This document shows, one piece after another, positions 35,954 through 62,230 of a stretch of 64,000 nucleotides of DNA. This DNA comes from Hondaea fermentalgiana. Lineage: Eukaryota; Sar; Bigyra; Thraustochytrida; Thraustochytriidae. The notes under the pieces were generated by a model, which did not search any database, was not told the origin of the DNA, and saw nothing but the letters and a program-made list of their open reading frames with translations. Positions within the stretch are counted from its first letter, which is position 1, and each line of letters starts with the position of its first letter. The position numbers and the translations under genes are program-made. The stretch covers positions 118,631 through 182,630 of the forward strand of contig NPFB01000035.1 in the NCBI GenBank assembly GCA_014084085.1. The letters are read 5' to 3'.

Positions 35954-37867
35954 ATGTCCATGACGAGGACGTCGACCTCCTCGACGAGGACCACGAACTG
36001 GGCCTCGTTGACCGTCGTGGCGACAGCTGCGGCAGCGTGCGGAGCATTTGCAGCCGTCGTGATTAGTCGCGAGCTGGAAACGCGAAAGAAGGCAGCTGCA
36101 TTTTCGTCAGCGGCATCGCGGGCCACCGCCGCCAAGGAGGATGCAACCACGACTGGCGACGCCACCGGCGCGTCGGAAAAGGTTTCCAAGACGTCTCCGC
36201 TCCCACCGCTTCCCGAAAGCGAGGTCGAGCTTTTGGACGAGCAGCTCTCACGCGGACGCGTCTTTCTGGGCGAAGAAGGTCAGAAACGTGTGGACGACAG
36301 CTTTGTCATTGTGGTTGGCGCTGGTGGTGTCGGATCCCACTGTGCGCATTTTCTTGCCCGTTCGGGCGTGCGGCGACTCCGGCTCATCGACTTTGACAAT
36401 GTCACGCTCTCTTCTCTGAATCGGCACGCCGTCGCGGACCGGTCTGACGTCGGCAAGCCCAAGGTTGCGGCTCTGAAGCGTCATATTGCTGCATTCATGC
36501 CGTACTGCGCCGTGGAGATCCGCAACGAGATGTTCACGGGAGAACATGCTGAGCGGCTGCTTGAAGGCGAGCCAGACTATGTTGTAGACTGCATTGACGA
36601 TTCCGACACCAAGACGGACCTTCTCGCGTACTGCGTCACAAACAAGATTCCAGTCATTAGCTCCATGGCTGCAGGCGCTCGCACGGACCCCACAAGACTG
36701 CACTTTTGCTCATTGAGCGAAGTTGTACGTGACCCAATTGCTTCCAAGTTGCGCTTCTTGTTGCGCAAAAAGTTTCAAGAGGAGACTTCTGAAGAGGCGG
36801 GCAGTCTCGACGATGCAAGCACGCAAATCGAGGTGCTGTACTCTTCGGAAACGACGCGCGTCAACCTCTTGCCCCTTGGTGATGAGGTAGCCGACGCCGC
36901 GCCCGAGGATCTTGGCGCCGTGGCAAACTTTCGTGTGCGAATCATGCCTGTCCTGGGTCCGATTCCGGCCATCTTTGGAATGTCCATGGCCTCTCGTGTG
37001 CTTACGAATCTCGCAGGACAAGCTTTTGAGCCTCTTGCTGCACCCCGCATGAAACAACGTGGTGCTCAAAAGCTGTACTCCAAGTTCCGCTCCAATCTCG
37101 CAAAGATCAAGCAGGCCATGGCCGAATCAGCGCCAGAAAGTGAGAGCGAGGAGGCCGTCTGGAAATCTTGGAACCTTGACGATCTCAGCGAGGAGGATAT
37201 CGAGGTCATGGCTGCGCAGTTTGGCATGCGATGCCCCGTCACGGGTACAAAGCCTGGTGATGGCACCAAGTACCAACTCGCTATTTGGCGCTATGACCGT
37301 CCCATCTCGGCGCAGAACATTGTTATTGCCGCTCCTTCCGGATGCGACAAGCTTGCCGACCTGCTCAATGCCCGCAGGCTGCCAACACCGGTCAGCCTTG
37401 GTGTCACCAAGGAGGAATACGACGCAACAGTGCGCATCTCTAGTGGGGTGCGTGACCCTGCAACCCGGCGCAGGGAGGTCGCGAACGAGAAAGGCTTTCA
37501 GGCCGTGTGCAAGCGCGCCTGCACGCACATGAACAAGGATCATGCCAAGGATAACATGACTCTCGTGCAGCGCTACGGAGACATTGACCCTGTCTCGGTC
37601 GAGATGCGATCTATGGACCGTCTCAAAATGACTTTCACCTGCACGATGTCAAGCGGCGACACGCGAGATGTTGATGTGTATTACCCGAGCATCTTAATTG
37701 AGCCCTCTGAGATCCGCGAAACTATTGTTAAGATGACCTTGCAGGCGCGCAAGGAGGGAACGTCTGCAGAGACAGAGACGGAGCCAGCTACAAAGACGGA
37801 GCAACCTGCAAAAAACGAAACGTCTGCACAGACAGAGCCATCTGCAAAGAACGAGACGCAAGCATAA
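35954..37867 (+). CDS. TCD1: TcdA/Tcd1-type tRNA threonylcarbamoyladenosine dehydratase fused to a DUF2470 domain
   Basis: 637 aa. N-terminal hydrophobic segment (~18-37), as in yeast Tcd1/Tcd2, which sit on the mitochondrial outer membrane. E1/ThiF fold follows: ATP-binding VGAGGVGSHC (121-130), Asp-bearing LRLIDFDNVTLSSLNRHAV (143-160), DVGKPKVAALKRHI, DYVVDCIDDSDTKTDLLAY, VISSMAAGARTDPTRL and DPIASKLRFLLRKK. These are the Tcd signature blocks. The enzyme makes cyclic ct6A from t6A at tRNA position 37 with ATP. The C-terminus adds a DUF2470-like domain (~515-605) beginning HMNKDHAKDN, the domain found at the end of HugZ haem-binding proteins and plant GluTR-binding protein. A Thr/Glu-rich tail with imperfect repeats follows. 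The fusion is unusual; start at 35954 (MSMTRTSTSS). Confidence 0.92.
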   Translation: MSMTRTSTSSTRTTNWASLTVVATAAAACGAFAAVVISRELETRKKAAAFSSAASRATAAKEDATTTGDATGASEKVSKTSPLPPLPESEVELLDEQLSRGRVFLGEEGQKRVDDSFVIVVGAGGVGSHCAHFLARSGVRRLRLIDFDNVTLSSLNRHAVADRSDVGKPKVAALKRHIAAFMPYCAVEIRNEMFTGEHAERLLEGEPDYVVDCIDDSDTKTDLLAYCVTNKIPVISSMAAGARTDPTRLHFCSLSEVVRDPIASKLRFLLRKKFQEETSEEAGSLDDASTQIEVLYSSETTRVNLLPLGDEVADAAPEDLGAVANFRVRIMPVLGPIPAIFGMSMASRVLTNLAGQAFEPLAAPRMKQRGAQKLYSKFRSNLAKIKQAMAESAPESESEEAVWKSWNLDDLSEEDIEVMAAQFGMRCPVTGTKPGDGTKYQLAIWRYDRPISAQNIVIAAPSGCDKLADLLNARRLPTPVSLGVTKEEYDATVRISSGVRDPATRRREVANEKGFQAVCKRACTHMNKDHAKDNMTLVQRYGDIDPVSVEMRSMDRLKMTFTCTMSSGDTRDVDVYYPSILIEPSEIRETIVKMTLQARKEGTSAETETEPATKTEQPAKNETSAQTEPSAKNETQA

Positions 37868-38037: not shown

Positions 38038-39384
38038 TTAGCGGAGGAAAGCCAAATCGTCCTCGTCCTCGTCAGCATCGTCCGCAGCAACCTCCGCTTG
38101 AACGTGCGACTTCGGTCCCGCAGTGCTTTGTCGCGGCTCCTCATCCGAGACGGCTTGCGTTGCATCTGCAAGCTCAGCAGTCGGTACACTTGCAGCTGGC
38201 GAAGCTTCAGGCACAGACGAAGGAGCAAGGGCTGGTGCAGGTGCCGGCGCGGCGACAGGGACTGCTGCTGGCGGCTCCGTTGGCGCAGGCGCAGGCGCAG
38301 GTGCAGGTGCAGGCTTGCGTGCAAATAGACCTGCGCGATTAGGGTCCTCCTCGGACACGGCTTGAGCCTCTGCCGTGGGAGCTGCTGCTTGCAAAGTCTC
38401 AGACGAAGACACGGGTTCTGTTTTTGCGTCAAGAGCGGCCAGAGGAGACGCCATGAGGGGCTCATCGCGACCTTGAGCAGAGGCATTGTACGGACTCAGA
38501 TCGCGGGCAACGAGTGCTACCTGACGTTCGAGGAATGTAAAGACTGGACGCGCAATAACGGCCCTCACCTCATCCACGTCGAGGGCCTCCCAAGCGCGAA
38601 GCAAATCCTCTGCCGCGGCGCACTCCTCGGATCGCAGATAGTCGGCATCGTCAAAACCTTCACGGAAAGCGGCGCGCGCTGCTGTGAGGTCATTACGCTG
38701 CAGGTGGATAATGACAGCACTAAGACGAAGCTTGTGCGAGCCGCTGGTCTGATTGAGATCCTTGTAAACGGGGATCATTTTCGAAAGTACTTGGATGGCG
38801 TCGCCCCAGCGACGCATTTTGACGACAAGATTGAGTGCATTTCGATAGGTATCCTTGCTGAAGACCAGCTTATTGTGCAGCTCGAGCACCTCGCATGCAG
38901 CGAGCATATTCTGAAGTGCTTCGGTGAGAAGAGGGTCGCGTTCCTTGTGGGCCTCCGGCAGAGAGGCGGCGCCGTCTGCAAGTGCTTGGCCCTTTTTCGT
39001 CAGCGCTGACGATGCCTGGGCAGCCATGCCTTCTTCGCGGTACACCATTGCGGCCTGGCCAAAAAGCGCGGCGGCTGCCTTAGCCTCCGCGAGACCGCCT
39101 TCGATGCCCTTGCTTTGGTCGCGGAAAAAGCCCAAGCGGATATCCGCGGCCGACTCCCAGCATTTCGCCGCTCCTGCTTCGTTCTCGGCTTTGGCATGGG
39201 CCTCTGCGGCCTTTTCGTACGCCTCTGCGCTCTCTGCTGGCTCGCCCGCCGCCTTGAAGGAGATTGCCGCCTTCTCGTACGCGTGCGCCGCCGAGACGTA
39301 GTCTGGGCTCCACTTGAACATGGACGTCTTGAGCGCGCTCTTAGCCGTCGCCGCATGCTTGCGTGCCGCGCTTAGTGCCGACAT
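38038..39384 (-). CDS. NAPG: Gamma-SNAP (NSF attachment protein gamma)
   Basis: 448 aa from the ATG ending at 39384 (MSALSAARKHAATAK); animal gamma-SNAP is ~312 aa. The first ~300 residues are TPR-like helical repeats in gamma-SNAP order: SPDYVSAAHAYEKAAISFKA, AESAEAYEKAAEAHAKAENE, a CEVLELHNKLVFSKDTYRNA helix, RWGDAIQVLSKMIPVYKDLN, and the family stretch VIIHLQRNDLTAA. The last ~140 residues are low-complexity Ala/Pro/Glu (an APAPAPAPTEPPAA run), ending in an acidic DEDEDDLAFLR. SNAPs recruit NSF to disassemble SNARE complexes. The terminal acidic-plus-hydrophobic end resembles the NSF-stimulating C-terminus of SNAPs. An in-frame ATG 34 codons upstream is less likely. Confidence 0.92.
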   Translation of the reverse strand: MSALSAARKHAATAKSALKTSMFKWSPDYVSAAHAYEKAAISFKAAGEPAESAEAYEKAAEAHAKAENEAGAAKCWESAADIRLGFFRDQSKGIEGGLAEAKAAAALFGQAAMVYREEGMAAQASSALTKKGQALADGAASLPEAHKERDPLLTEALQNMLAACEVLELHNKLVFSKDTYRNALNLVVKMRRWGDAIQVLSKMIPVYKDLNQTSGSHKLRLSAVIIHLQRNDLTAARAAFREGFDDADYLRSEECAAAEDLLRAWEALDVDEVRAVIARPVFTFLERQVALVARDLSPYNASAQGRDEPLMASPLAALDAKTEPVSSSETLQAAAPTAEAQAVSEEDPNRAGLFARKPAPAPAPAPAPTEPPAAVPVAAPAPAPALAPSSVPEASPAASVPTAELADATQAVSDEEPRQSTAGPKSHVQAEVAADDADEDEDDLAFLR

Positions 39385-39781
39385 CTTGCGGCTTTTTTCT
39401 CCTTGCCCTGGCTGCTCCCACGAGCTCGCTTCTGCCGCAGAACCGCTCGCGCCGTCGCTGCTCGTGATCCAAGACTCGTTCAACAATCGATCGATCGATC
39501 GAATCGAACTGTGGCAGGCGAGTTCTTCTTTTGGTTTTTTTCATCGTGTTTTTTTCTTTTTATCGTGTTCCCCCCCCCCCCTTTGTTTTGCAAATGATGA
39601 TGAGACGATGTTTTCTTTTGCATGAGTAAAAGAACTCGGTACTTTACACGGTCGCGGAGCTTGACGTTCTCTGCAAATCGTCTGCGAGAGCATGGTTCTA
39701 CACGATATCCAACCTCCACTTTTCTTTCTGGCTATCATATCACAGCGAGTCAAATTCATACAATCAAAAGTTAGGTCAAAA
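39385..39781. other. Short intergenic region between two minus-strand genes
   Basis: Nearly 400 bp between gamma-SNAP and the stop of the fusion gene. It contains an ATCG run (about 39485-39505) and T/C-rich and C-homopolymer tracts (about 39535-39582). No gene is recognised. Confidence 0.55.
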
Positions 39782-42700
39782 TCAAAAGCCTTGGGCCGCA
39801 TAGTCGAAAGCGGTGCGCGAGCTGCAAAAGATGCAAGAGGCCTCAAAGAGGTCGACGCTAGCACTGTCTTGGTCGTCAACGCCTCTGACACCACAATCTG
39901 GAAAAGAGTTTCCACACGGCGAACCCAAGTAGGCGCCGTTGCGCAATTTGAGAACCTGTGTCGTCGTGTTTGCGCCATAGAGCGTGAAATCAGGCTGTTC
40001 ACTTTGAGCTGCAATGCCCACCTCGACGGCATCAAAAGTATACTCGTTGATGGCTTGCACAAGAGCATTTTCAATCGAGAGCTGGGGGTTCCGCAGGAAA
40101 AGCTCTGCCGTGCGCAAAAGGATCGGAGAGCCCTTGGGAAAGAGCAAGAGATCTGCTCCGTCCTGCCAGGCGCTAGGAAAGGAGCGCGGTATTGTCTGCA
40201 TGACGAGTCCATTGTGGTTGCGCAGAAAAACACCTCCATGTATGAAGAGAACGAGCACCGGCAAAATATCGAGATCATCAGGAAACTTTCGCATGTGCGA
40301 AACAAAGCGCTTTACCAAGTTGTGATCCAGGTGAAGCTGCCTAAGTTGTTGCACCATGTCAAAACTCTCCACTGCAACGTCGTAGCCGACCAGAGCCAGT
40401 TGCACCAGTTCTGTTTGCCGCATACCCACGTTGTCATTGCAGTGCACGACGAGTCTTGCATTCGGGTGGTGACGAAAGACACTCTCGGCAAGACGCATTG
40501 TACTATTGGTCATGGCATTGGCGGATGGAAGCATAATGTGAAACACATCTTGCGGGGCCTCGACACCGTAGGGCTGGCCGTGACCGAGCCGGCGAAGGGG
40601 CACGATTCCGAAAAGAAAGGCAGTGTCCGAAAAAACAGACGAACGCTTGGAGATATAGTTCCAAAACGTTGCGCGGTGTCGATCGACAATATGATTGCCT
40701 GGGTTGGGGGGCGGATGCGTCCAGTTGAAAAAGCGGGGAAGAGGTTGATCACGGCCAAGAACGTGAAAGAAGGAAATGATGTCGTCCATGCCAGCGCCCA
40801 TGGCACCTTGCACATCCGTTACAGTGGCATCCGCTCCGCGAGGAGGCTTGAGAAATATCACTGGCACACCTTGAGCCATGGCCGCGAGACCAATGTGTGC
40901 GCGCGACGTGATGACCAGCTTGGCCTCCTCGGCAAACGAGCGCAGCAGGTGGAAAGCGTAGTGGTGGACGCCCTCTTCATCTCGAAGAACATCTAGCGCC
41001 GGTAAAACGGACCGGCGCTCTACCACATTGAGAACGCCATCAGGGATGAGATCGGTGCGTGCAACATCAACGAGAAAGGCCTTGTTTCCACGAGGCTGGC
41101 GTACGTCCGTCGCAACGTCGACAATGGTCGAGAAGCAGCCCGAAAAGAACGCCTCGACCCCATTGGCCACGAGAAAGTCGAGCGTGGCATGGTCTCTTGC
41201 ACCCACCGGCCCATGTTTTTTGTTGTAGTCCGTAAAGTACGAGATGTCCTTGCCGAGGACCTGTTTTCGGAATTTGGGGCTTGTGTGGACCGACAACATT
41301 ACGGGGTCGAGCTTCGGGCCAGGTGGCCACTGCACGTTGGGGCCAAGCCAGGTGTTCATGAACAAGTGCCCATGTGCGTCAGGGAGACCCTGATCACGAT
41401 CCGTAAAGTGAGAGAGGTACGGCATAAAGGAGAGACCGGCAAAGGCTTGCAGCTCATCGCCGAGGTCCACGCCAACGAGCTTCTTCGAGTGCGACACATA
41501 GCTGAACGAAGAGTACTCTTCAAATTGGTCTTGCAGCTCTCGAAGGTTGGGCAACATAAAAGGCGGCATCATGCTCAGCGTTGCTGGCTCATAGTCAATA
41601 GAAGGCCAGTTGCGGTCGCTATGGCAATGCCAGCTGACTTGGCCGAGGATTCGCACACAAATGCCAGGCTTCTTTAGCAGCAACGACAACATTGCCACAG
41701 ACTGCACATGATCGGCAAATTGGCGTTTTAGACGTACCTTTTCCCACATGTGATGGCGCACAAAGGTCTCGTACGGCGTGCCTCGCACAAGAGACTTGAG
41801 ATTGAGACGGCGCGCACCAGCAAAGCGGTTCATGCAACCCGAGAAGGCGCAATATACCACTTCGGTGGGGCAACGCCGATTCACATTTGGCCCTGGACTG
41901 AACGGATACGCCCAGATACTGTACAGCTGCTCCTCGTAGACGTCGCAGATCGCTCGAGGCTCTTCGATGCGACCGTCCTCGCTAATGCCAGGGGTGAACT
42001 GACGCTGCGAGCGTTCTTGGAGCCAGGTTTCTGGGCCATAGTGCGCGTGAATGTCGTCTCCGCCCATCACGAGAGCGGCCGTGATGAGGACTGCTAGTGA
42101 GCCAAGCGCAGCAGTACGTCGTACGGAGCTCTGGTGACGGTTCATGTCAACGCCCGCCCAGCCAACGCCCACGAGACCAATGCCTAGCCACTGCGCCACA
42201 GTAATGTGCTCAAAGTGAACGCATGCAGCAAGCACGGCAATAAAGATACATTGAAGCAACTTGAGTCCTTCGTGCGCCCCCTGCGAATAGAGTTGCGTGA
42301 TCAAAAGGTTCACCGCACTCGCACCAAAGTAGTAGAGGCCGGTCTCGACGCTGACACGTCCCGTAAAGACCGAAAGGTTGGTTGCGTACATGATGACAAG
42401 GATAAAGAGCGCTAGCACAAATCCCACCGTCGAAGTGATGCCAAACGCCAGAAACGGCGCATCCGCGTGCACCTTGTGCATCATGCGCCGCACGATGTGC
42501 GATCGCCACTGAAGCAGTGCGCTCGATAGAAAAATGAGAATGACACCCGAGACGACGCTAGGCCCTGAAACTGAAGCTGCCATGGCGCCAGCGCCCAGGA
42601 CAATACCAAACAGGGTCTGCGTCGTTGACAAGGGCAGGTGGGTTTGAGGAACCCAGCGAAGTGTCGCCATCGCCACGAGAATCGCAGGTTCCACCAACTT

Positions 42701-43555
42701 GGCGAGCTGGAGTGTCGAAACGTCGAGAACTGCGAGACCGCTCAGGAGAAATGCGTGACTAAGGAGATGCGCAAAACCCAGAACAATCCAAACGATGTGG
42801 GGCGTGCTGTCCAGCAACGCGGTCAGGGCTTCGAGTTTGTGAGGATGGCCTGCCACGTGCATGAGCACGCCATGGGAAAACATCAGAGCACAGCTCACAA
42901 AGAGGTGAACAGCCGTTTGCGCGAGAACGTCACCGGCGCCAAGGGCACCCTTTATTGATTCGTGGAGCTCCATGAAGAATATTGCACTCAAGCCGAACCA
43001 GATGCAGATTAACACAAAGGCTGCGGGTTGGCTTAACAGGACACCAAGACATTCGCATGGCCCGCTTTCTGAGAGCTCAGAGGATCCTTGACCATCTGCT
43101 CCGCAGTGTCCCCCGACGCCCCCGGAGTTCGCATCCCCGGCCCCCAAAGCGCCGGCGTTTGCCTCATCGATGTCCCCGTCCCATCGATCGTCTAAATACA
43201 CGGACGACTTGCGTTTGAAGCGTGCGCGGTCTTCCTCGCCGTTACCATTCGTACCGCGCAGCGTTTCCTGGTGATGATAATTGTGAAGGTTTCCGATCGA
43301 GGCAGGACCCGGTCTTTGCATGCCAACGAGGTGGACGCCATCGCTGGTCATGCCAACATCGACGTCATTCAACCTGATGCCCTGGTACACAGCGGAGCCG
43401 ACGGCCGCGCCCGCATGCAGCGTCGTGGCCGCCGCCTCGTGAAGATCGCACAGCTCTTGCGGCACGCTGCCGCGGCGCCGCGGGCCGTCTCCCTCCTCGT
43501 GGCCCGCGGCGACCGCGCCGTCGCTTGTGCTCGCGTCCGGGCGCCGCTGCGGCAT
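39782..43555 (-). CDS. Fusion: triose-phosphate/PEP-type transporter + polysaccharide pyruvyl transferase + GT32-like glycosyltransferase
   Basis: 1257 aa, one frame. Residues 1-170 are disordered. ~175-470 is a ~10-TM drug/metabolite transporter superfamily domain; LDVSTLQLAKLVEPAILVAM and the repeat-two EGLKLLQCIFIAVLAACVHF block recall the triose-phosphate/PEP translocator family. One more TM (~483-498) leads into a likely luminal part. ~695-905 is a polysaccharide pyruvyl transferase: LGDELQAFAGL, GPVGARDHATLDFL, and SRAHIGLAAMAQGVPVIFL. These use PEP to ketalise sugars (yeast Pvg1 does so in the Golgi). ~1003-1220 resembles GT32/A4GALT-type transferases (HHPNARLVVHCND; PDDLDILPVLVLFIHGGVFL), but the expected DXD after the GG motif reads RNHN, so metal binding may be lost. 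Importing PEP to the attached enzyme is an attractive inference. The exact transporter substrate is unknown. Confidence 0.85.
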   Translation of the reverse strand: MPQRRPDASTSDGAVAAGHEEGDGPRRRGSVPQELCDLHEAAATTLHAGAAVGSAVYQGIRLNDVDVGMTSDGVHLVGMQRPGPASIGNLHNYHHQETLRGTNGNGEEDRARFKRKSSVYLDDRWDGDIDEANAGALGAGDANSGGVGGHCGADGQGSSELSESGPCECLGVLLSQPAAFVLICIWFGLSAIFFMELHESIKGALGAGDVLAQTAVHLFVSCALMFSHGVLMHVAGHPHKLEALTALLDSTPHIVWIVLGFAHLLSHAFLLSGLAVLDVSTLQLAKLVEPAILVAMATLRWVPQTHLPLSTTQTLFGIVLGAGAMAASVSGPSVVSGVILIFLSSALLQWRSHIVRRMMHKVHADAPFLAFGITSTVGFVLALFILVIMYATNLSVFTGRVSVETGLYYFGASAVNLLITQLYSQGAHEGLKLLQCIFIAVLAACVHFEHITVAQWLGIGLVGVGWAGVDMNRHQSSVRRTAALGSLAVLITAALVMGGDDIHAHYGPETWLQERSQRQFTPGISEDGRIEEPRAICDVYEEQLYSIWAYPFSPGPNVNRRCPTEVVYCAFSGCMNRFAGARRLNLKSLVRGTPYETFVRHHMWEKVRLKRQFADHVQSVAMLSLLLKKPGICVRILGQVSWHCHSDRNWPSIDYEPATLSMMPPFMLPNLRELQDQFEEYSSFSYVSHSKKLVGVDLGDELQAFAGLSFMPYLSHFTDRDQGLPDAHGHLFMNTWLGPNVQWPPGPKLDPVMLSVHTSPKFRKQVLGKDISYFTDYNKKHGPVGARDHATLDFLVANGVEAFFSGCFSTIVDVATDVRQPRGNKAFLVDVARTDLIPDGVLNVVERRSVLPALDVLRDEEGVHHYAFHLLRSFAEEAKLVITSRAHIGLAAMAQGVPVIFLKPPRGADATVTDVQGAMGAGMDDIISFFHVLGRDQPLPRFFNWTHPPPNPGNHIVDRHRATFWNYISKRSSVFSDTAFLFGIVPLRRLGHGQPYGVEAPQDVFHIMLPSANAMTNSTMRLAESVFRHHPNARLVVHCNDNVGMRQTELVQLALVGYDVAVESFDMVQQLRQLHLDHNLVKRFVSHMRKFPDDLDILPVLVLFIHGGVFLRNHNGLVMQTIPRSFPSAWQDGADLLLFPKGSPILLRTAELFLRNPQLSIENALVQAINEYTFDAVEVGIAAQSEQPDFTLYGANTTTQVLKLRNGAYLGSPCGNSFPDCGVRGVDDQDSASVDLFEASCIFCSSRTAFDYAAQGF

Positions 43556-44268: not shown

Positions 44269-46002
44269 ATGGCGGGCATCGTGCGCGGCGGAGGCCTTGT
44301 GGGCCATGCGGTCCGCAAACCGCTCACGCGCGGCCTGCTCACGGGAGGTGGTGGAGGGCTTGACCTGAGCGCAGCTCTGGCGGGACCCGCGGCGCCCAAG
44401 ACGGCAGACGTCGTGGTCATCGGAGGTGGGTCCGGAGGAATTGCCTGCGCGAATAATCTTGCGGAGCGGGGACTCGAGGTCGCGCTCGTAGACCACGTGC
44501 GACCCTCCACGCAGGGCACGACCTATGGGTTTGGTGGCACTTGCGTGAATGTAGGATGCATTCCCAAGTATCTTTTCCATCGCGCCGCAAGTCTGCGAGA
44601 TGAGGTCAACATGGATGGGCCCGCTTTTGGGCTCGGGCCGACGCCAAGACTTGCAGACAGCAAAGATGCATGGTCCACCGTCGTACAGACCGTGCAGAAC
44701 CATGTGCGCTCCCTAAGCTTCTCGTACGCCGCCAATGTGCACGCCAATGTCTCGCTCGTGCGATCCCGGGCAGTGGGAGTTGACCCGGAACCTGACTCGC
44801 GCAGTGTCGAGGTCGCCAACGCTGGCAAGTCGAATCGTATTGAAGCGCGCCAAGGTGTAATTCTGGCCATGGGCGGCCGGCCCCATATTCCCGATCACAT
44901 TCCTGGTGCAAAGACGCATGGAATCACGAGCGACGACATTTTCTCACTGAACAAACCACCAGGCAAAACCCTCTGTGTTGGCGGCTCGTATGTTTCCTTG
45001 GAAATCGCTGGCTTCCTTGCAGGTCTCGGTTTTGACACAACCGTTGCTGTGCGTAGCCGACCTTTGCGCGGTGCCGCCTTTGATGTCCAATGCGCAGATA
45101 AGGTCGTTGAGCTACTGGGGGCTCACGGTGCACGTGTCGCGCAAGTGGAGCCGATTCGACTTGAACGAGACGGACCCGATGCACCGATTCGAGTATCACT
45201 GCGACACAGTGATGGGTCAACAACGGAAGAAAGCTTTGACACGGTTCTTTTTGGAACGGGACGCGCGCCAGAGGTGACGGACCTCGGCCTTGATAAAGCA
45301 GGTGTAACGTTTGATCAATCGTCGGGCAAAGTCCTCGTCGATGATCGCTTCGAGACATCGCGTGAGGGCATTTTTGCTCTCGGAGACTGCGCGCTCACTC
45401 CGATTGATGCTCCTGAGTTGACACCTGTGGCGATTCGCCAGGCTGACGTGCTCGCCGACTTGATTGTCCCTGTGGCCAATGGCGACAGAAAACCCGCACG
45501 CTTTCTCGACACGGCAGTCGCTGAGCTTATCGGACGCGAAAGGGCCGCAAGTCTCATGGTCCCAAGCACCGTGTTTACCCCGATCGAGTACGGTCGCGTC
45601 GGACTCGGTGAAGATGCGGCATGCGATCTGCTGGGCCCAGACAATGTCGAAACGTACATTATGGAATGGCAGAGCTTGCATGTCTCGGCCTCGCATCGCA
45701 CGGCCCACGACGGCAGCGAGTACCCACGCCAATGTTTGGCCAAGGTTGTTTGCCATCGAGGGGGCGATGACCCTGCTCAGCAGCGTGTGATTGGCTTGCA
45801 CTTTGTCGGACCTGCAGCTGGAGAGACCATGCAGGGACTCGCTCTCGCTGTAAATCTAGGTGCGACCAAGGAGGACCTCTTTGATCGTGTGCTGGGGATT
45901 CACCCAACCAACGCAGAGGCCTTTGTGGATCTCAGCATCACCACGCGCTCGGGCCAAGACTACGTGCAGCAGGGCGGGTGCGCGGGCGGTCGATGTGGTT
46001 AA
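44269..46002 (+). CDS. TrxR: High-Mr thioredoxin reductase with Cys-X4-Cys C-terminus
   Basis: 577 aa. Pyridine nucleotide-disulfide oxidoreductase: FAD motif VVVIGGGSGGIACANNLAE (49-67), redox pair in GGTCVNVGCIPK (Cys92/Cys97), NADPH motif CVGGSYVSLEIAG, second FAD contact FALGDC, and catalytic HPTNAEAF near the end. The terminus ...GGCAGGRCG places Cys571 and Cys576 four residues apart, followed by Gly and a TAA stop. This is the Plasmodium-type C-terminal redox centre (CGGGKCG), not the Gly-Cys-Sec-Gly of mammals or Ser-Cys-Cys-Ser of insects. It would reduce thioredoxin using NADPH. The N-terminal ~45 residues are basic/Gly-rich and may be an organellar presequence (inference). Confidence 0.95.
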   Translation: MAGIVRGGGLVGHAVRKPLTRGLLTGGGGGLDLSAALAGPAAPKTADVVVIGGGSGGIACANNLAERGLEVALVDHVRPSTQGTTYGFGGTCVNVGCIPKYLFHRAASLRDEVNMDGPAFGLGPTPRLADSKDAWSTVVQTVQNHVRSLSFSYAANVHANVSLVRSRAVGVDPEPDSRSVEVANAGKSNRIEARQGVILAMGGRPHIPDHIPGAKTHGITSDDIFSLNKPPGKTLCVGGSYVSLEIAGFLAGLGFDTTVAVRSRPLRGAAFDVQCADKVVELLGAHGARVAQVEPIRLERDGPDAPIRVSLRHSDGSTTEESFDTVLFGTGRAPEVTDLGLDKAGVTFDQSSGKVLVDDRFETSREGIFALGDCALTPIDAPELTPVAIRQADVLADLIVPVANGDRKPARFLDTAVAELIGRERAASLMVPSTVFTPIEYGRVGLGEDAACDLLGPDNVETYIMEWQSLHVSASHRTAHDGSEYPRQCLAKVVCHRGGDDPAQQRVIGLHFVGPAAGETMQGLALAVNLGATKEDLFDRVLGIHPTNAEAFVDLSITTRSGQDYVQQGGCAGGRCG

Positions 46003-46142: not shown

Positions 46143-48581
46143 TTACAGTGCCCACTCATCGTTGTCACTCCATTCTTCGTCACTTTCTGCGTCGCTATCA
46201 CCGCCAACAATTTGGTCTCGGCGAGCATCCAGAGCCTGTGCGATGGCCGACATGGGGTTGCCACTGTTGGCAGCGGAACGTCGACGCTCCTCTTGCAACT
46301 TTTCTGTATCGACGTGCTTGAGGTTGTCCTTTTTGGCATTCTGCAAGGCTGCCAAGAGAGGATTGGTCGGGGCCGCAGGCGCACGTTCGACAGGCTCCGC
46401 CTTCTTGAGATGGACGCCACCCTGAATCGCCGCAAGTAGAGGGTTGCCACCACCGCCGCCGCCCGCCGCCGCTGGCGAGGATGACGGAGGTGGGGGTGCC
46501 GCCTTCTTGAGCTGGGGACGCGCCTGAATCTGACCCAAAAGACCTCCAGGGCCGCCACCTCCGCCGCCCGAAGAAGGAGCTGCGGGGGCAGGAGGAGGGG
46601 CCGCCCCGCCTCCAAACCCAGGAGGCGGGGTAACCCCGTCACGCGACATGGCCTGAAGAATTGCGCCTTCGGGCAGACCTGCCTTTTGCATGCGCTCGTA
46701 CTTTTCATATCCTGGCGGCAGCGAAGCGCCCGGCGCGGGCGGCGGTGGAGCAGCTCCTGCTGCGGTGGGCGGCGCTGCGGCTCCGGGTCCAGGGGGCGGA
46801 GGCGGAGGCATGCCTCGGCGAGGAGCGGCTGGCGGAGGCGCAGGTGCTCCAGCACCGGTCGCAGCGTCCCCTTGGCCCGCGAAAAAGCTGTCCGGGAGCA
46901 CAACACCATCCTGGGCGGCCTTGTTGCGCACAGCGCCCTCGGGCAAGCCCATCTTGAGCATCTTGCTGTACTTTTCAAAGCCGGCATCGTTGCCGCCACT
47001 GGCGGGCACGGGCGGTGCGGGCGCATGTGATGGAATCGGGGGCGGGGCACCGCGGCCCGAATCCGATCGGGTCGGTGGCGTTGGTGGCGCAGGCGGCGTC
47101 GGCGGCGACCTGCGGACCGCAGGAGCTGGCGGCGGCGGCGGCGCGCTTCCACGCGTCGGAGGGGCCTGGCTAGGCGCTGGCGGCGGCACCACAGGAAGAG
47201 GAGGCGCGAGTTTCGTCTGCGAAGCACCACGTCCGGGCGGGGCTCGTGTTGGGCCGGCAGGGACACTAGTCGAGCTCCGCGAAGGCGGTGGTGGCGCCGT
47301 CATGGATTTGGCCCCACCAGGGCGTGGGGGCGTTGTGGGCCGCTGCGGCCGTTCGGGAGCCTTTGGCCTAGAGCGCCGCTTGAAGGAATTATCTCTCGAG
47401 ATCGAAGCGTTGCCGCCTTGGGATGGAATTGCCGAGGCAGCCACGCCCGCAACTGACGTGGGTACAGGAGGAGGCGCGGGAGGCGTGTGCACCCCCGCCG
47501 CAGCGCCGCGCTGTGGAGGAGCAGGCGGTGCAGGCGGCGCAGGCGGCGTCGATCCGCGCGAGGGTGGTGGCGGGGGAGGCGCTGGCGCCGCCGCGCCAGG
47601 TCCATTCCGTGCAGCTGGTGGTGGTGGCGCAGGTCGAGGAGCACGCGACGGCCGTGGAGGCTTGGGCTTCATGTCGGTCGCGATCTTCTTCACCTTGCGA
47701 CCAGGTTTGCGATCTTCCATCTCAAAGCCTTTTGGAGCCTTTTCCATGAGGAGCACGACGGTCGTCGGGACATCGCGAAGAAGTTTGATAACCTGCTTGA
47801 AGGAGAGGTTATCGACACGTTGGCCCTGAATACCTTTGATGCGATCACCGACATCGAGCTTGTGTGTTCTCTGCGCTGCGCCGTTTTCCTCAATACTCCG
47901 GATCAGAACGGACTTGATGCGGTGGTCCCACGAGAGCGTCATGCCCACGCCGGTTGTGCCTTTGGTCAGCTCTACCACGTACTCACTCGATTTGGCAACA
48001 GCCATTGATTGGCGACGTGCTTCGTGCATTTCGCGAATCGACTTGGAGACCGGCAAGTAATCGAGATAGCCCACCACGCGTACCGCCTTGAGCACAGAGT
48101 TGCTAGAAAAGTTAACCACCATGGTTGCGTCACTCTGGTCAACACTAATGAGGAACCTTTCTTGAACTTTGGGGTTCGACTTGTCGATTGAAAAGGTTTT
48201 CGTGGCCAGCTTTTCACGGCCGTCGCCAGAGGTCACGTCCAGCTTCACTTGAGCCCTGCGAGCCCCAGTGATGGAGCTGTGCAGGTCTGGGACCTCGGCC
48301 GTGAATGTGTATGTTCCTGCATCTAAAGAAGAGCGTACAAAGTGAGCGTCTTTGCTCGTGCTTCGCAGGGACGCCTCATCATTCCAGATGCGCTGTGGTT
48401 GTGCCTGCTTGAGCATAGGTTTCCCTCCTTCAACAACAACTTCGAAGCCGCTTTGAATCAGGTGATAATACATCTGCTGCGTCTCCAGTGATGCGAAATA
48501 GAGGCCGTCCGAGGTCGCGTACGCCTCGGACGGCTTCATCGGCTTTTGATCCACCGGGTCATAGACCACAGCCTCCGCCAT
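46143..48581 (-). CDS. PDZ-containing WASP-like actin nucleation-promoting protein with CCDC53-like motifs
   Basis: 812 aa. Residues 1-195 form an unrecognised globular N-terminus (VVYDPVDQKPMKPSEAYATS). A PDZ domain follows at ~200-282 (GVGMTLSWDHRIKSVLIRSI, then KLDVGDRIKGIQGQRV). A long proline-rich region (~305-740) would bind profilin/SH3. It is interrupted by two WASH-subunit-3 (CCDC53)-like motifs: YSKMLKMGLPEGAVRNKAAQ (~535) and YERMQKAGLPEGAILQAMSR (~625). Then come three WH2-like motifs: LLGQIQARPQLKKA, LLAAIQGGVHLKKA and LLAALQNAKKDNLKHV. A connector-like NPMSAIAQALDARRDQIV precedes an acidic tail with Trp (DAESDEEWSDNDEWAL). WH2-connector-acidic is the VCA output module of WASP proteins that bind actin and Arp2/3. 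No WH1 or WASH homology domain was seen. Confidence 0.88.
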   Translation of the reverse strand: MAEAVVYDPVDQKPMKPSEAYATSDGLYFASLETQQMYYHLIQSGFEVVVEGGKPMLKQAQPQRIWNDEASLRSTSKDAHFVRSSLDAGTYTFTAEVPDLHSSITGARRAQVKLDVTSGDGREKLATKTFSIDKSNPKVQERFLISVDQSDATMVVNFSSNSVLKAVRVVGYLDYLPVSKSIREMHEARRQSMAVAKSSEYVVELTKGTTGVGMTLSWDHRIKSVLIRSIEENGAAQRTHKLDVGDRIKGIQGQRVDNLSFKQVIKLLRDVPTTVVLLMEKAPKGFEMEDRKPGRKVKKIATDMKPKPPRPSRAPRPAPPPPAARNGPGAAAPAPPPPPPSRGSTPPAPPAPPAPPQRGAAAGVHTPPAPPPVPTSVAGVAASAIPSQGGNASISRDNSFKRRSRPKAPERPQRPTTPPRPGGAKSMTAPPPPSRSSTSVPAGPTRAPPGRGASQTKLAPPLPVVPPPAPSQAPPTRGSAPPPPPAPAVRRSPPTPPAPPTPPTRSDSGRGAPPPIPSHAPAPPVPASGGNDAGFEKYSKMLKMGLPEGAVRNKAAQDGVVLPDSFFAGQGDAATGAGAPAPPPAAPRRGMPPPPPPGPGAAAPPTAAGAAPPPPAPGASLPPGYEKYERMQKAGLPEGAILQAMSRDGVTPPPGFGGGAAPPPAPAAPSSGGGGGGPGGLLGQIQARPQLKKAAPPPPSSSPAAAGGGGGGNPLLAAIQGGVHLKKAEPVERAPAAPTNPLLAALQNAKKDNLKHVDTEKLQEERRRSAANSGNPMSAIAQALDARRDQIVGGDSDAESDEEWSDNDEWAL

Positions 48582-57688: not shown

Positions 57689-60600
57689 CTATAGTCCATC
57701 CTGAGGATTCTCCAAGCGGCACAGAGCATACGTTTCGAAGCTTCCGCAACACAAATCGCGAACGGAAGAACCTGACAGAGCATCAACGTTTTGAGGCAAG
57801 AGCTTGGGGTTTGCACCACGTTGATCGTTGCCCCAGACATAGACTGCTCGCGTTTCCGTCAGCGCCACCGTATGTGCTGCTCCGCACGTAACTTGAACAA
57901 CCTTTACGTCGGCACCATTTCGACCGAGACTTGTAACAAGAGTGGGCACGCGTTGCGACTCGAGGTCTCCAAGACCAAGCTGACCGCTATCGCCCTCGCC
58001 CCAGGTGTACACCTCGCCGTCGTCCGTGACGCCCGCGCTGTGATAGCGGCCAGCAGCAATGCTCAACGCTTTGCCGGGGAAGGCGTCAACGAGAGAGGGA
58101 TCTGCGTTGGGTTCATCGTAGATTTCTCGATCTAATCCAAGCTGGCCTTCACATCCCCGGCCCCAGGCATACAGATTGTTTGACCCCGTAATGACGAGAA
58201 CGTGAGCTTCTCCAACCGCCATACTCTTTACGACGCTCTCGGCGCCGAGATCAACCATGGTGGGATGGGCTTGTTCATCGTCGTGGCCAAGTCCAAGCTG
58301 ACCAAAGTCATTTTGACCCCACGTAAATAGCCTTCCCTCACGCGTCAAGACGCATGCAAAGTTGGTTCCGCACGCCACTTCAATGGCAAAGGATGTCGAC
58401 AATGCGTGAACCCAGCGCGGCTCGGTCACGGTACCATCTGGGCTCATGACGTGATCTTCGACAACATACTGCGAGTCCTCATTGGACTGTGTGCGCCGCA
58501 CAGTTACGTCCTCCGCGCTGGAAAGAGAAAGTGTCGTGAGCACTTGATTTGCTGTGCTTTCTTCTCCGCTCCGACTCGACCTCGATGATTGGTACAGCGG
58601 GTCAAAGGTCGATTGTCCGTCTGCAGCTGCATCATAATCTTCCTCGGCTCCACTCTGCCCATTTCCGTACGAACGCGATGACCCGCGGCGGTTTGTGGCT
58701 CTATTTAGTTGTGAACGACTTTCCTTTGGGTGCTCGAAGAGCTCCCACGCAGGGACCTCCCCAGATCTTGCAACAACCAGAACATTTTGCGGTTGCACGA
58801 AAACGCCATGGCTCTCAGCGCATGTAAAATAGCGTTTTCCCTTGACCGTGCCATCATTTTTGCCCAGCGGTTCGTCAAGCTCAATACCGACCCATATGCC
58901 GCGAGCAAAGCCCGTGCGGCCCATGAAACGTACAACGCCACAATCCGCGAGTCGTTTGCTCACCAAGTGCACTCGCTTTCCAACACGGATGGGCTCCAAT
59001 GGCGGCGTGGACTCCTGATGTTCGTCGTCGACATTGTGTTCCTTTTGCTCCACATCGGCGGCGTTAGAATTTTGCGATGCCATCGACGAGGAGCTGCTTC
59101 GGCGCCGCAAGAGGGACCGAGAAGATTTGGAGAGAATTGAGGAGAAAGAATTTGGACGAAAGAGTCCTCGCCATCGCTCGGGTGCGGACGTTGTTGTTGC
59201 TGCTGACGCAAGTCGGTTGCGAGGGCTCTTACCCATGTTGCGTAGACTCTGCGTCAAGTTGCGCACAATCCCGAGCGGTGCAGAATGAGGCTCTGGAAGT
59301 TTTTCTTCTTCTTCCTCTTCCGTATCGCCCTCCGCCTCCTCGTCCTCGTCGTCCTCCTCAACCTCATCGATGAGAAAGCCTTGGTCGCTGAAGCTGTCCT
59401 GTACCTGAATCATACGTTTGTCATCGGAGATACCGGTCGTACCTGCAAAAGAGGAGGAAGTCGTGGACAAAGACATTGAATTGCCAAAGAAGAGCGGTGT
59501 CTCTGCATCCCCGTGACGCGGACTTCGAAATGGATTTTCACCAGGTGGTTTGGACTGATTTCTGTAGAATTGTTCCTTGGCCCAAGCTGGCCACCCTTGC
59601 GGAGGACTCGCGGATCCTACCTCGTCTTGATGCTGATCGCTACCGTCGTTCGTCCGTTGCGGGGACAGGCTGTCCATTTGCCCGAGCTGAGAGGATCTTG
59701 GCATGGCTGCCTTCAGGTTCGATGCTCGGCTGGAGACGTTGAGAGATGCCATGCCCAAAGTCGAGGCAGAGGGTCCTCGGGAAACAGAGTCTTCGGTGTC
59801 TTCATCAGTCTGCAGCATGCGCTTCGACACATTTCCATTCGCTGTGCTGATAGCAAGATTGAAAGATGAGACACTTAGCGTCGATGTAGACCGCCCTCTG
59901 CGAACGTGGTCTTCTTCCAACCCGTCCTCGCCCGGATTCCCTTCCGCGAAAAAGGAACGGCCCGTCTTGCTCCTGGACGACACATTCAGCAAAGACATGC
60001 CAAGTGACGAGGCGGAGGGCCCGCGACGAACACTCCCTTCATCGTCGCTGCTGAGCAGCGACATGCGACTGCGACTTGAACCAGTATCCACTGTGAGTGC
60101 CGCCTTTGGCCGCGAAGACTGGAAACCATATCGCAGTCCGTCATTCACCTCGCTCACCAAGGAAGACGCTTCGGACATGCCCTCTGCAAAGACGGAGTCC
60201 TGCGCAAGGTCTCCGCAGGCCTCGAATTTGAGTTCGAGCTCACTGTGATCGCCAAGATCGCTCAAATCGCCCCACATATACACTTTGCCATCGCGAGAGA
60301 CTGCAGCTGAGAATGCAGAGCCGCACGCGACGCTCGCGATGCAAATGGAACGGTCCGAGAAGTAACGAATGTGGCGCAGCTGGCGCAATGCAGCAATATC
60401 TAGGGACGAAGGGCTAATGCCCAGTTGCCCAGAGCTATTGCATCCCAAGCTGAGCACTTGTCCATCCTCGGTGAGGACGAGGGTGTGGTGTGTTTCCGAT
60501 TCTTCCTCTTCGAATCGAGTGCAAGCAATCGACTCGACGTTGACCCATTCGTTGTGCTGCATGCTAGCGAGGTAGATGCGCTCGTCTAACTTGGGGCGGC

Positions 60601-62230
60601 GCTGACCACTCCCCCAACGGAAGACGCGAACGCCATCGCGAATGAACAACGACATGATGATGCGTGCCTCCGAGTCTGACATGGAGGAAAAGGACATGCC
60701 AGAATCCCGTGACTCGTTCAGGCCGGATCCGATTCCCGTCGAAGATCGAAAACGTGAGAAACTGCCTCCAAGACTGAGCGTTCCAAGCTGACCAGGACCC
60801 GGCGCAGCACGTGGGCTGCCGGTGCTGAAAAAGGTTCTCACACATTGCGCGCCGCCGCCATCGGGCTCAGCATGCGATCGGGGGGAGAGAGCATCTCCAG
60901 CACTCGCAGCTGCACTTGCTCCTCCGCTATTTCGACGAAAGACTGCATTTTGCTCAAGCACAGACATTTTTTGCACATTCCGATTGATGCGGCGTGGTGA
61001 CCCGCTCCTTGAGCTATTGGTCGGCGAGGCAAACGTCGTGGCAAGTGCAGACTCGGGACCGCTGGTGTCGATGGAGCATTTCAACAAGACATTATTGTTG
61101 CTACTTTCCGCGTGGGCTTCGGAGGGCAGATAAGGTGTTCCGGATGAAGGCCCTGAAGGATCTGTGGACTCTGATGCACTTGTGGAGCCCGTGCAGGGCG
61201 ACGTGGCGGCTTGAGCAGCAGAGCCTTGACCCCTTGCATTTAGGGCTGTGCACGCGTAGGCTTGGCTGGAATCACTGGCATTCGGGCCCGCTCCTTGCTC
61301 GTTGTGCATGTTCTCCCTTCTTGACAAGATATAAGTGTCAGCCTCTTGTTGAACCTCTCGGGCCTCTGTTTGGATGAGCGTGTCGCGAATGGCGTCCCAT
61401 AACTGCATTTTATGACGGACGACGGGAATGGCGCAGAGCTGATGCATGTCGGGTCGATCGTCGGAGTCCTTTTGGAGCATCAGATCAATGAGGTCGCGTA
61501 TCGCATCTGAGTACGTTCGAAGGGCGATGCTATTGAGCGGCTGATGTGGCTCGCGAATGATTTGCAGCGCAAGCTGCGGAAGATTGGGTGACTGAAACGG
61601 TTTGCTGAGGGAGAGCATCTCGTAAAGCACACAAGCAAGGGCCCATACGTCGCTCTTTTGCGTGTACACCCCACCAGAGCAAATTTCTGGTGCCAGGTAG
61701 TATGGCGTGCCAACGAGCTGCGCACCAGCGGGCGAGGAGTTGGACAAAACCTTGGCGATGCCAAAGTCTGCGAGCTTGACAACTCGACCCCTTGGTCCCC
61801 AAAGCAGAATATTTTGTGGTTTGATATCACGGTGAAGAATGTTGCAATTGTGCACGTAGCGTAAGGCAATGCACATTTGCGAAAACCATTCCCAGATTTG
61901 ATCTTCGGGTAGTGGGCCACGTGCTTGATTGAGTACGTTGACGAGCGCACCGCCTGCTGCGTACTCCATGACAATGTGTTGATTGCTATTCTCCACAAAG
62001 CTGCCAAAGTATTGGATGACATTGGGATGATTGAGCTCGGACAGCAAGTCCACCTCGTTGATCATGTCGCGACGCTCTTCATCGGAAAGAGCGTCAACGC
62101 GCGCACGCAATGTTTTGAGCACGAGAAGGCGACCATCCTCCTTGCGACGAACGCGCCGCACGTTCGCAAAGGCGCCCGTGCCGATCACGTCATACACCTC
62201 AAAGAGCTGGTCCATGGTCTTGGTCGCCAT
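57689..62230 (-). CDS. NEK-type Ser/Thr kinase with RCC1 repeats flanking a CAP-Gly domain
   Basis: 1513 aa. Kinase at ~8-275: GTGAFANV P-loop, VLKTL lysine, HRDIKPQNIL catalytic loop, DFG in LADFGIAKVL, GTPYYLAPEI activation segment, matching NEK-type kinases. A first RCC1 region lies at ~530-665 (LTEDGQVLSLGCNSSGQLGI). A Ser-rich part (~727-835) contains three ~43-residue repeats of the (S/H)V(R/S)RG(P/R)S(A/T)S type. A CAP-Gly domain follows (~1080-1152), with GIWVGIELDEPLGKNDGTVK. A longer RCC1 block (~1255-1505) has repeated GRLFTWGQNDFGQLGLGHD-type blades. NEK8/9 carry kinase plus RCC1; the CAP-Gly would add EB1/tubulin-tail binding. Expect a microtubule, centrosome or ciliary role. The split RCC1 could assemble one propeller with CAP-Gly inserted. 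Confidence 0.92.
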   Translation of the reverse strand: MATKTMDQLFEVYDVIGTGAFANVRRVRRKEDGRLLVLKTLRARVDALSDEERRDMINEVDLLSELNHPNVIQYFGSFVENSNQHIVMEYAAGGALVNVLNQARGPLPEDQIWEWFSQMCIALRYVHNCNILHRDIKPQNILLWGPRGRVVKLADFGIAKVLSNSSPAGAQLVGTPYYLAPEICSGGVYTQKSDVWALACVLYEMLSLSKPFQSPNLPQLALQIIREPHQPLNSIALRTYSDAIRDLIDLMLQKDSDDRPDMHQLCAIPVVRHKMQLWDAIRDTLIQTEAREVQQEADTYILSRRENMHNEQGAGPNASDSSQAYACTALNARGQGSAAQAATSPCTGSTSASESTDPSGPSSGTPYLPSEAHAESSNNNVLLKCSIDTSGPESALATTFASPTNSSRSGSPRRINRNVQKMSVLEQNAVFRRNSGGASAAASAGDALSPRSHAEPDGGGAQCVRTFFSTGSPRAAPGPGQLGTLSLGGSFSRFRSSTGIGSGLNESRDSGMSFSSMSDSEARIIMSLFIRDGVRVFRWGSGQRRPKLDERIYLASMQHNEWVNVESIACTRFEEEESETHHTLVLTEDGQVLSLGCNSSGQLGISPSSLDIAALRQLRHIRYFSDRSICIASVACGSAFSAAVSRDGKVYMWGDLSDLGDHSELELKFEACGDLAQDSVFAEGMSEASSLVSEVNDGLRYGFQSSRPKAALTVDTGSSRSRMSLLSSDDEGSVRRGPSASSLGMSLLNVSSRSKTGRSFFAEGNPGEDGLEEDHVRRGRSTSTLSVSSFNLAISTANGNVSKRMLQTDEDTEDSVSRGPSASTLGMASLNVSSRASNLKAAMPRSSQLGQMDSLSPQRTNDGSDQHQDEVGSASPPQGWPAWAKEQFYRNQSKPPGENPFRSPRHGDAETPLFFGNSMSLSTTSSSFAGTTGISDDKRMIQVQDSFSDQGFLIDEVEEDDEDEEAEGDTEEEEEEKLPEPHSAPLGIVRNLTQSLRNMGKSPRNRLASAATTTSAPERWRGLFRPNSFSSILSKSSRSLLRRRSSSSSMASQNSNAADVEQKEHNVDDEHQESTPPLEPIRVGKRVHLVSKRLADCGVVRFMGRTGFARGIWVGIELDEPLGKNDGTVKGKRYFTCAESHGVFVQPQNVLVVARSGEVPAWELFEHPKESRSQLNRATNRRGSSRSYGNGQSGAEEDYDAAADGQSTFDPLYQSSRSSRSGEESTANQVLTTLSLSSAEDVTVRRTQSNEDSQYVVEDHVMSPDGTVTEPRWVHALSTSFAIEVACGTNFACVLTREGRLFTWGQNDFGQLGLGHDDEQAHPTMVDLGAESVVKSMAVGEAHVLVITGSNNLYAWGRGCEGQLGLDREIYDEPNADPSLVDAFPGKALSIAAGRYHSAGVTDDGEVYTWGEGDSGQLGLGDLESQRVPTLVTSLGRNGADVKVVQVTCGAAHTVALTETRAVYVWGNDQRGANPKLLPQNVDALSGSSVRDLCCGSFETYALCRLENPQDGL
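59725..60050 (-). repeat. Three ~43-residue internal repeats in the NEK-RCC1 protein
   Basis: The repeated core pattern is D-x-V-x-R-G-x-S-x-S-(S/T)-L followed by S-x-N-V/L. The central copy differs most. Arg-x-x-Ser spacing suggests these are phosphorylation sites, but this is inference. Confidence 0.75.

Follow-up and report, generated by a model that had tools for sequence, protein, structure and literature searches.

One reading frame joining a TPT-like transporter, a polysaccharide pyruvyl transferase and a GT32-like domain, and the possible feeding of phosphoenolpyruvate within its family

Studies of how activated donors pass from the cytosol to the enzymes of the Golgi usually deal with carriers and transferases as separate proteins. 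A gene in the stretch of DNA analysed here (the window: 64,000 nucleotides of contig NPFB01000035.1) raises the question of whether a carrier and the enzymes that it serves can be one protein. On the minus strand, positions 39782-43555 hold a single uninterrupted frame of 1257 codons, the product of which (the window protein, P0001) is made up of a TPT-like transporter, a further membrane helix, a polysaccharide pyruvyl transferase (PPT) and a GT32-like glycosyltransferase (GT) domain of the GT-A type. A preliminary description of the locus had recognized the frame and the three domains in this order, and had proposed that the transporter supplies phosphoenolpyruvate (PEP) to the attached enzyme in a self-contained Golgi pyruvylation machine. 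Its account of the architecture was confirmed: the longest frames in 20 random sequences with the same first-order composition span 225-381 codons, two homologues (P0002 and P0006, see below) have the same domains in the same order, and in a predicted model of modest confidence the transporter part matches TPT (5Y78), the PPT part Pvg1p (5AX7) and the C-terminal part GT-A enzymes. 5AX7 is not among the Foldseek matches listed for this model. The parts of the protein are as follows (pLDDT, predicted local distance difference test):

39782-43555, minus strand: whole open reading frame, 1257 residues, open throughout
43046-43555, minus strand: N-terminal tail, residues 1-170, poorly conserved (the alignment with P0002 starts only at residue 112)
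42146-43045, minus strand: TPT/DMT-type transporter, residues 171-470 (homology to P0002 and P0006, match to 5Y78, model helices)
42044-42130, minus strand: further membrane helix, residues 476-504 (hydropathy 1.87 at 481-499, a low-confidence model helix, and a corresponding hydrophobic stretch in P0002 and P0006)
41546-41968, minus strand: conserved cysteine-containing segment, residues 530-670, between the membrane helix and the PPT, with no family assigned (pLDDT 80-89 over 541-640)
40709-41545, minus strand: polysaccharide pyruvyl transferase domain, residues 671-949
39824-40558, minus strand: GT32-like GT-A domain, residues 1000-1244 (homologues and model matches)

Three protein searches, each of which scored the 7999-8000 candidates sharing most words (further family members may exist), found seven relatives besides the window protein (P0002-P0008). 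Two of them, P0002 and P0006, both from JGI contigs, have the same layout; a search with the transporter-containing alignment found no further fusion. P0002 (1095 residues) is 36% identical to the window protein over 85%. The Pfam matches of P0006 are all above the cut-off (TPT, 1.3e-20; PS_pyruv_trans, 1.5e-7; Gly_transf_sug, 1.2e-11; Gb3_synth, 2.4e-13). One explanation would be that separate genes were joined by misassembly or by a missed intron or stop, and P0008, an MMETSP fragment with 61-64% identity, indeed covers the C-terminal third only. Nevertheless, the same order recurs in two further proteins on other contigs, and the alignment of P0001 with P0002 crosses both domain junctions and has gaps at 57 of its 1093 columns, so that such an artefact is highly improbable.

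Four other relatives, P0003, P0004, P0005 and P0007, are devoid of the transporter and by hydropathy carry one hydrophobic helix at the N-terminus, to which P0007 adds a stretch within the enzyme part. The same genome as the window also encodes an unfused PPT-GT32 paralogue (L002; G000:C233, 1138-3654, minus strand), 33% identical over residues 529-1149, with one N-terminal helix. In a phylogeny of the PPT alone, P0006 joins two unfused proteins, P0005 and L002 (Shimodaira-Hasegawa-like approximate likelihood ratio test, SH-aLRT, 85), as could be expected from separate fusions of P0006 and of P0001/P0002. Yet the longer PPT and GT32 alignment, analysed without P0008 (as was the hhalign test below), separates the three fused proteins from the others by one branch (91/93, not starred), and a single fusion event is therefore favoured.

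The transporter of the window protein has the ten-transmembrane DMT fold and no Pfam match (the cut-off of 30 bits for PF03151, TPT, is not reached). A Pfam TPT match is found in three of the four transporters of P0001, P0002, P0006 and the locus L008 of the same genome: 74.4 bits in P0006 and 70.5 bits in L008, both above the cut-off, and 19.9 bits, below it, in P0002. A tree was made of 11 of the 13 TPT loci of the genome (L015 and L016, partial and under the cut-off, were left out) together with the transporters of the three fusions. The transporters of the fusions and of L008 are separated by one branch (98/97) from the ten other TPT-family members; the tree is unrooted, with long branches for L008 and L006. 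Against PDB chains, a profile of the four transporters finds TPT 5Y78 first (2.8e-7), then SLC35B1 (2.8e-5) and the CMP-sialic acid transporter (0.037). The top NCBIfam model is the Tpt phosphate/PEP translocator for P0006 (1.4e-14, 54.3 bits) and L008 (5e-14, 52.5 bits), with a cut-off of 317.9. Phosphate recognition in TPT involves Lys204, Lys362 and Arg363 (PMC11661312, citing Lee 2017), and the corresponding residues of the window protein are:

42698-42700, minus strand: K286, aligned to TPT K204 and kept in P0001, P0002, P0006 and L008
42248-42253, minus strand: Q435-C436 in place of TPT K362-R363, which are KR in P0006 and P0002

The three positions thus read K, K, R in P0006 and P0002, K, K, G in L008 and K286, Q435, C436 in the window protein. 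At H185 and Y339, which we take to be further substrate residues of TPT, P0006 and L008 have N and Y, P0002 has H and F, and the window protein has H and A. P0006 keeps the equivalents of K204, Y339, K362 and R363. The TPT-type transporter of the preliminary description therefore stands as regards fold and kinship; a Pfam match and the K362/R363 pair are missing from the transporter part of the window protein itself.

L008 (G000:C207, 190-2652, minus strand), in which a TPT part is followed by about 400 residues and whose transporter clusters with the transporters of the triple fusions, is a possible second transporter-pyruvyl transferase fusion. The sole Pfam match of its C-terminus is PS_pyruv_trans, under the cut-off (E = 0.096 for the whole protein, 0.022 for the C-terminus alone). 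The C-terminus did not rise above 500 shuffles with profiles of 6 and of 15 of the 27 PPT loci, and it was missed by a profile of 80 prokaryotic PPTs, from whose genomes the prokaryotic sequences behind the former profiles also come; no PPT was found for it among PDB sequences or NCBIfam. The model predicted for L008, with a mean pLDDT of 41.8, is of too low a quality to be used, and the extra helix, for which the highest mean over 17 residues is 1.22, is a weak one. L008 was therefore rejected as a clear TPT-PPT fusion, and only the kinship of its transporter is claimed.

The pyruvyl transferase of the window protein belongs to the PPT family and fold and has the Arg and His of the PEP site, which bears out its identification in the preliminary description. 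The profile of 80 prokaryotic PPTs detects it at 2.4e-39, and the family profile matches 5AX7 with a whole-sequence E of 0.015, R885 falling on R337 and H887 on H339 (chain position + 53 gives the entry number, counted by hand).

41195-41197, minus strand: R787 of GARD, the presumed PEP-site Arg, equated with CsaB R148 and Pvg1p R217 by motif reading, without a residue-level alignment (residue roles from PMC4872226 and PMC10435577)
40895-40903, minus strand: R885-A886-H887, aligned to Pvg1p R337-L338-H339 (PEP binding) by the family profile against 5AX7, over 48 positions

Pvg1p has been modelled to bind PEP via R217, R337, L338 and H339 (PMC4872226; PMC6801904), and the activity of CsaB is abolished by R207D, H308A and H308R, not by H308K or H308S (PMC10435577). 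The R and H of the PEP site are kept in five of eight family members (P0001, P0005, P0006, P0007 and L002) and lost in three (P0002, P0003 and P0004). Kinship with prokaryotic pyruvyl transferases is also seen in genome contigs, where a relative is encoded at 196 of the 199 pattern matches, and the best 80 of these 196 stretches were used in the comparisons. Identity to them is 26-34% for 76 loci and 40-43%, over about 122-125 residues, for the other four; 62 of the 80 are Bacteroidota by title or tree label, and all 80 frames stand alone and are open over 282-466 codons, never more. In a phylogeny of the eight family members and the 80 prokaryotic sequences, a branch with SH-aLRT 100 sets the eight apart; this tree was made by a quick method without P0008, is unrooted and has long branches, and seven of its sequences are unusual in composition. 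Acquisition of the PPT part from bacteria long ago would fit. A relative of the PPT with 36% identity over about 127 residues also occurs on a contig filed as viral (L113, IMGVR_UViG_3300027719_000263, 5001-5375). Viral kin were not retained: there is this one IMG/VR contig with a PPT only, none for L008, and no phage match for P0006.

The C-terminal domain, GT32-like as had been proposed, has the GT-A fold of the GT32/Gb3 synthase-like glycosyltransferases; its metal- and donor-binding DXD motif is replaced:

40211-40219, minus strand: N1113-H1114-N1115, where P0003-P0006 have DTD (one inserted residue before NHN)

Elsewhere the motif reads DMY in L002, GSD in P0007 and EHD in P0008, and it is lost in P0002. 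The GT domain of the window protein is thus probably no longer a metal-dependent transferase. In a different view of the transporter, its cargo would be a nucleotide sugar for the GT32-like domain, and the PPT would take its PEP from another carrier. The fold is shared with nucleotide-sugar transporters, VIA scores do not separate TPT from the CMP-sialic acid transporter, SLC35B1 comes second among the sequence matches of the transporter profile, and DTD is intact in P0006. Nevertheless, P0001 and P0002 keep the transporter part despite the loss of DXD, an argument of small weight for P0002, where the PPT site is lost too, and for P0001, where the transporter has also changed. The phosphate-binding KR pair is moreover kept in P0006 and P0002, and the related transporter L008 comes without a Pfam-detected GT, its only C-terminal match being the sub-threshold one to PS_pyruv_trans. 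A nucleotide-sugar cargo consequently seems unlikely, while deserving more than passing consideration.

TPT proteins span the membrane with ten helices and expose both termini to the cytosol, so that an enzyme fused directly behind one of them would be cytosolic. Hydropathy places a hydrophobic stretch behind the transporter in all three fusions (481-499 in P0001, 377-395 in P0002, 325-343 in P0006), shortly ahead of the enzyme part, at the place taken by the membrane anchor in the unfused relatives. This further helix would put the enzyme domains on the luminal side. The hydropathy scan alone finds 8, 8 and 6 segments in P0001, P0002 and P0006, fewer than eleven, and the model helices behind model residue 263 have pLDDT <50. 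The possibility that residues 538-660 are a duplicated GT half was discarded, as hhalign found nothing (E 0.75). The layout hence fits the luminal placement proposed in the preliminary description, and from the transporter with its one further helix, together with the lone helix at the N-terminus of the unfused proteins, we infer Golgi-resident luminal enzymes; the PEP cargo and catalysis are also inferred.

These elements may be brought together as follows. In a family of endomembrane, probably Golgi, proteins, a TPT-family transporter that imports PEP would, through a further helix, carry two luminal enzymes, one a pyruvyl transferase of bacterial type and the other a GT32-like glycosyltransferase; to our judgement this picture could equally be right or wrong, and the PEP feeding itself stands at about even odds for the family. 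In the intact form P0006, the transporter would most likely bring PEP into the lumen, the GT domain would make or bind the sugar end, and the pyruvyl transferase would cap that end with a pyruvate ketal. The stronger form of this proposal, a one-protein eukaryotic machine in which a Golgi PEP importer is joined to a bacterial-type pyruvyl transferase and an acceptor-preparing glycosyltransferase and hands PEP over at the membrane, falls a little short of an even chance. As the only one of the three fusions with all three sites intact, P0006 appears a better candidate for a self-contained pyruvylation machine than the window protein.

For the latter, two observations weigh against full self-containment: its transporter keeps one of the three TPT phosphate-binding residues (K286 only), not the set of a phosphate exchanger, and its GT domain has NHN for DXD. 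Judged from these residues, the proposal that PEP is fed to the attached enzyme in a self-contained machine is weakened for the window protein. P0002 presents the converse case, keeping the KR pair of the transporter and having lost the PPT Arg/His and DXD, whereas in the window protein the KR pair is lost and the PPT site intact. Such losses (K362/R363, the Tyr339 equivalent and DXD in P0001; the PPT site and DXD in P0002) could mean that the window protein is decaying or repurposed, with transporter and GT dead, leaving a membrane-anchored pyruvyl transferase or a scaffold, and L002 or other enzymes doing the chemistry. Its frame is nevertheless open over 1257 codons, P0008 is 61-64% identical over the C-terminal third, and the PPT Arg and His are kept, arguments without bearing on transporter activity; we regard decay as improbable. 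In the PEP-fed family, the window protein would be a diverged member, and since two of three phosphate-binding residues are lost, its transporter may have another cargo, transport PEP inefficiently or act chiefly as a membrane anchor.

The start of the window protein is unsure, since P0002 aligns only from residue 112 and further in-frame ATGs occur at codons 69, 79 and 195; GC at third positions is 0.73 in the N-terminal tail and 0.58-0.65 behind it. The gene is flanked by a SNAP-family gene (38038-39486, minus strand) and a divergent pyridine nucleotide-disulphide oxidoreductase gene (44269-46002, plus strand). The window holds other composite frames: ThiF joined to DUF2470 in 637 residues (35954-37867, plus strand), PDZ, CCDC53-like and WH2 matches in 812 residues (46143-48581, minus strand), and a frame of 1513 residues that combines a protein kinase with CAP-Gly and RCC1 repeats (57689-62230, minus strand).

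Each part of the fusion is known; as far as we looked, the joined protein is undescribed in the open-access literature. In that literature, no paper was found with both family names together, nor, in a narrow search, with 'pyruvyl transferase' and 'thraustochytrid'; the word 'pyruvyl' is not present in the excerpt of PMC12221091. A natural fusion names the partner of a carrier and predicts its cargo: here it would point to PEP for a TPT-type Golgi carrier, would make donor hand-over directly testable, and predicts pyruvylated glycans in the source organism. A long ACP array, which would be a sign of a thraustochytrid, did not emerge: among the at least 13 PP-binding matches, none belongs to a tightly clustered array. 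Thraustochytrid walls contain galactose-containing sulfated polysaccharides, and wall elements are found in the Golgi (PMC11642839). If the source organism is a thraustochytrid, these polysaccharides would be a possible acceptor.

The closest functional parallel is found in S. pombe, where the Golgi enzyme Pvg1p depends on the separate transporters Pet1p and Pet2p for its supply of cytosolic PEP (PMC4872226); this agrees with the preliminary description of Pvg1 as a Golgi enzyme needing PEP and gives PEP feeding a precedent. Both systems share the PPT fold and the R-x-H of the PEP site, and would share the luminal need for PEP and a transporter and pyruvyl transferase as a working pair, but the yeast proteins are separate, Pvg1p is described as type II, and there is no GT domain. 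The window PPT is also far from Pvg1p in sequence, with a profile match to 5AX7 of only E 0.015. The transporter shares with TPT (5Y78, PF03151) the DMT fold, the K204 equivalent and, in P0006 and P0002, K362/R363; unlike TPT, it is fused to enzymes with a further helix, and in the window protein the pair is lost. Prokaryotic PPTs such as L033 have the motifs GD.Q, GxRD and SRxH in common with the fused enzyme, but theirs are stand-alone frames. Finally, the unfused PPT-GT32 proteins (L002, P0003, P0004, P0005 and P0007) contain both enzyme domains, arranged as in the fusions, with a single N-terminal membrane helix, by hydropathy, in place of the transporter.

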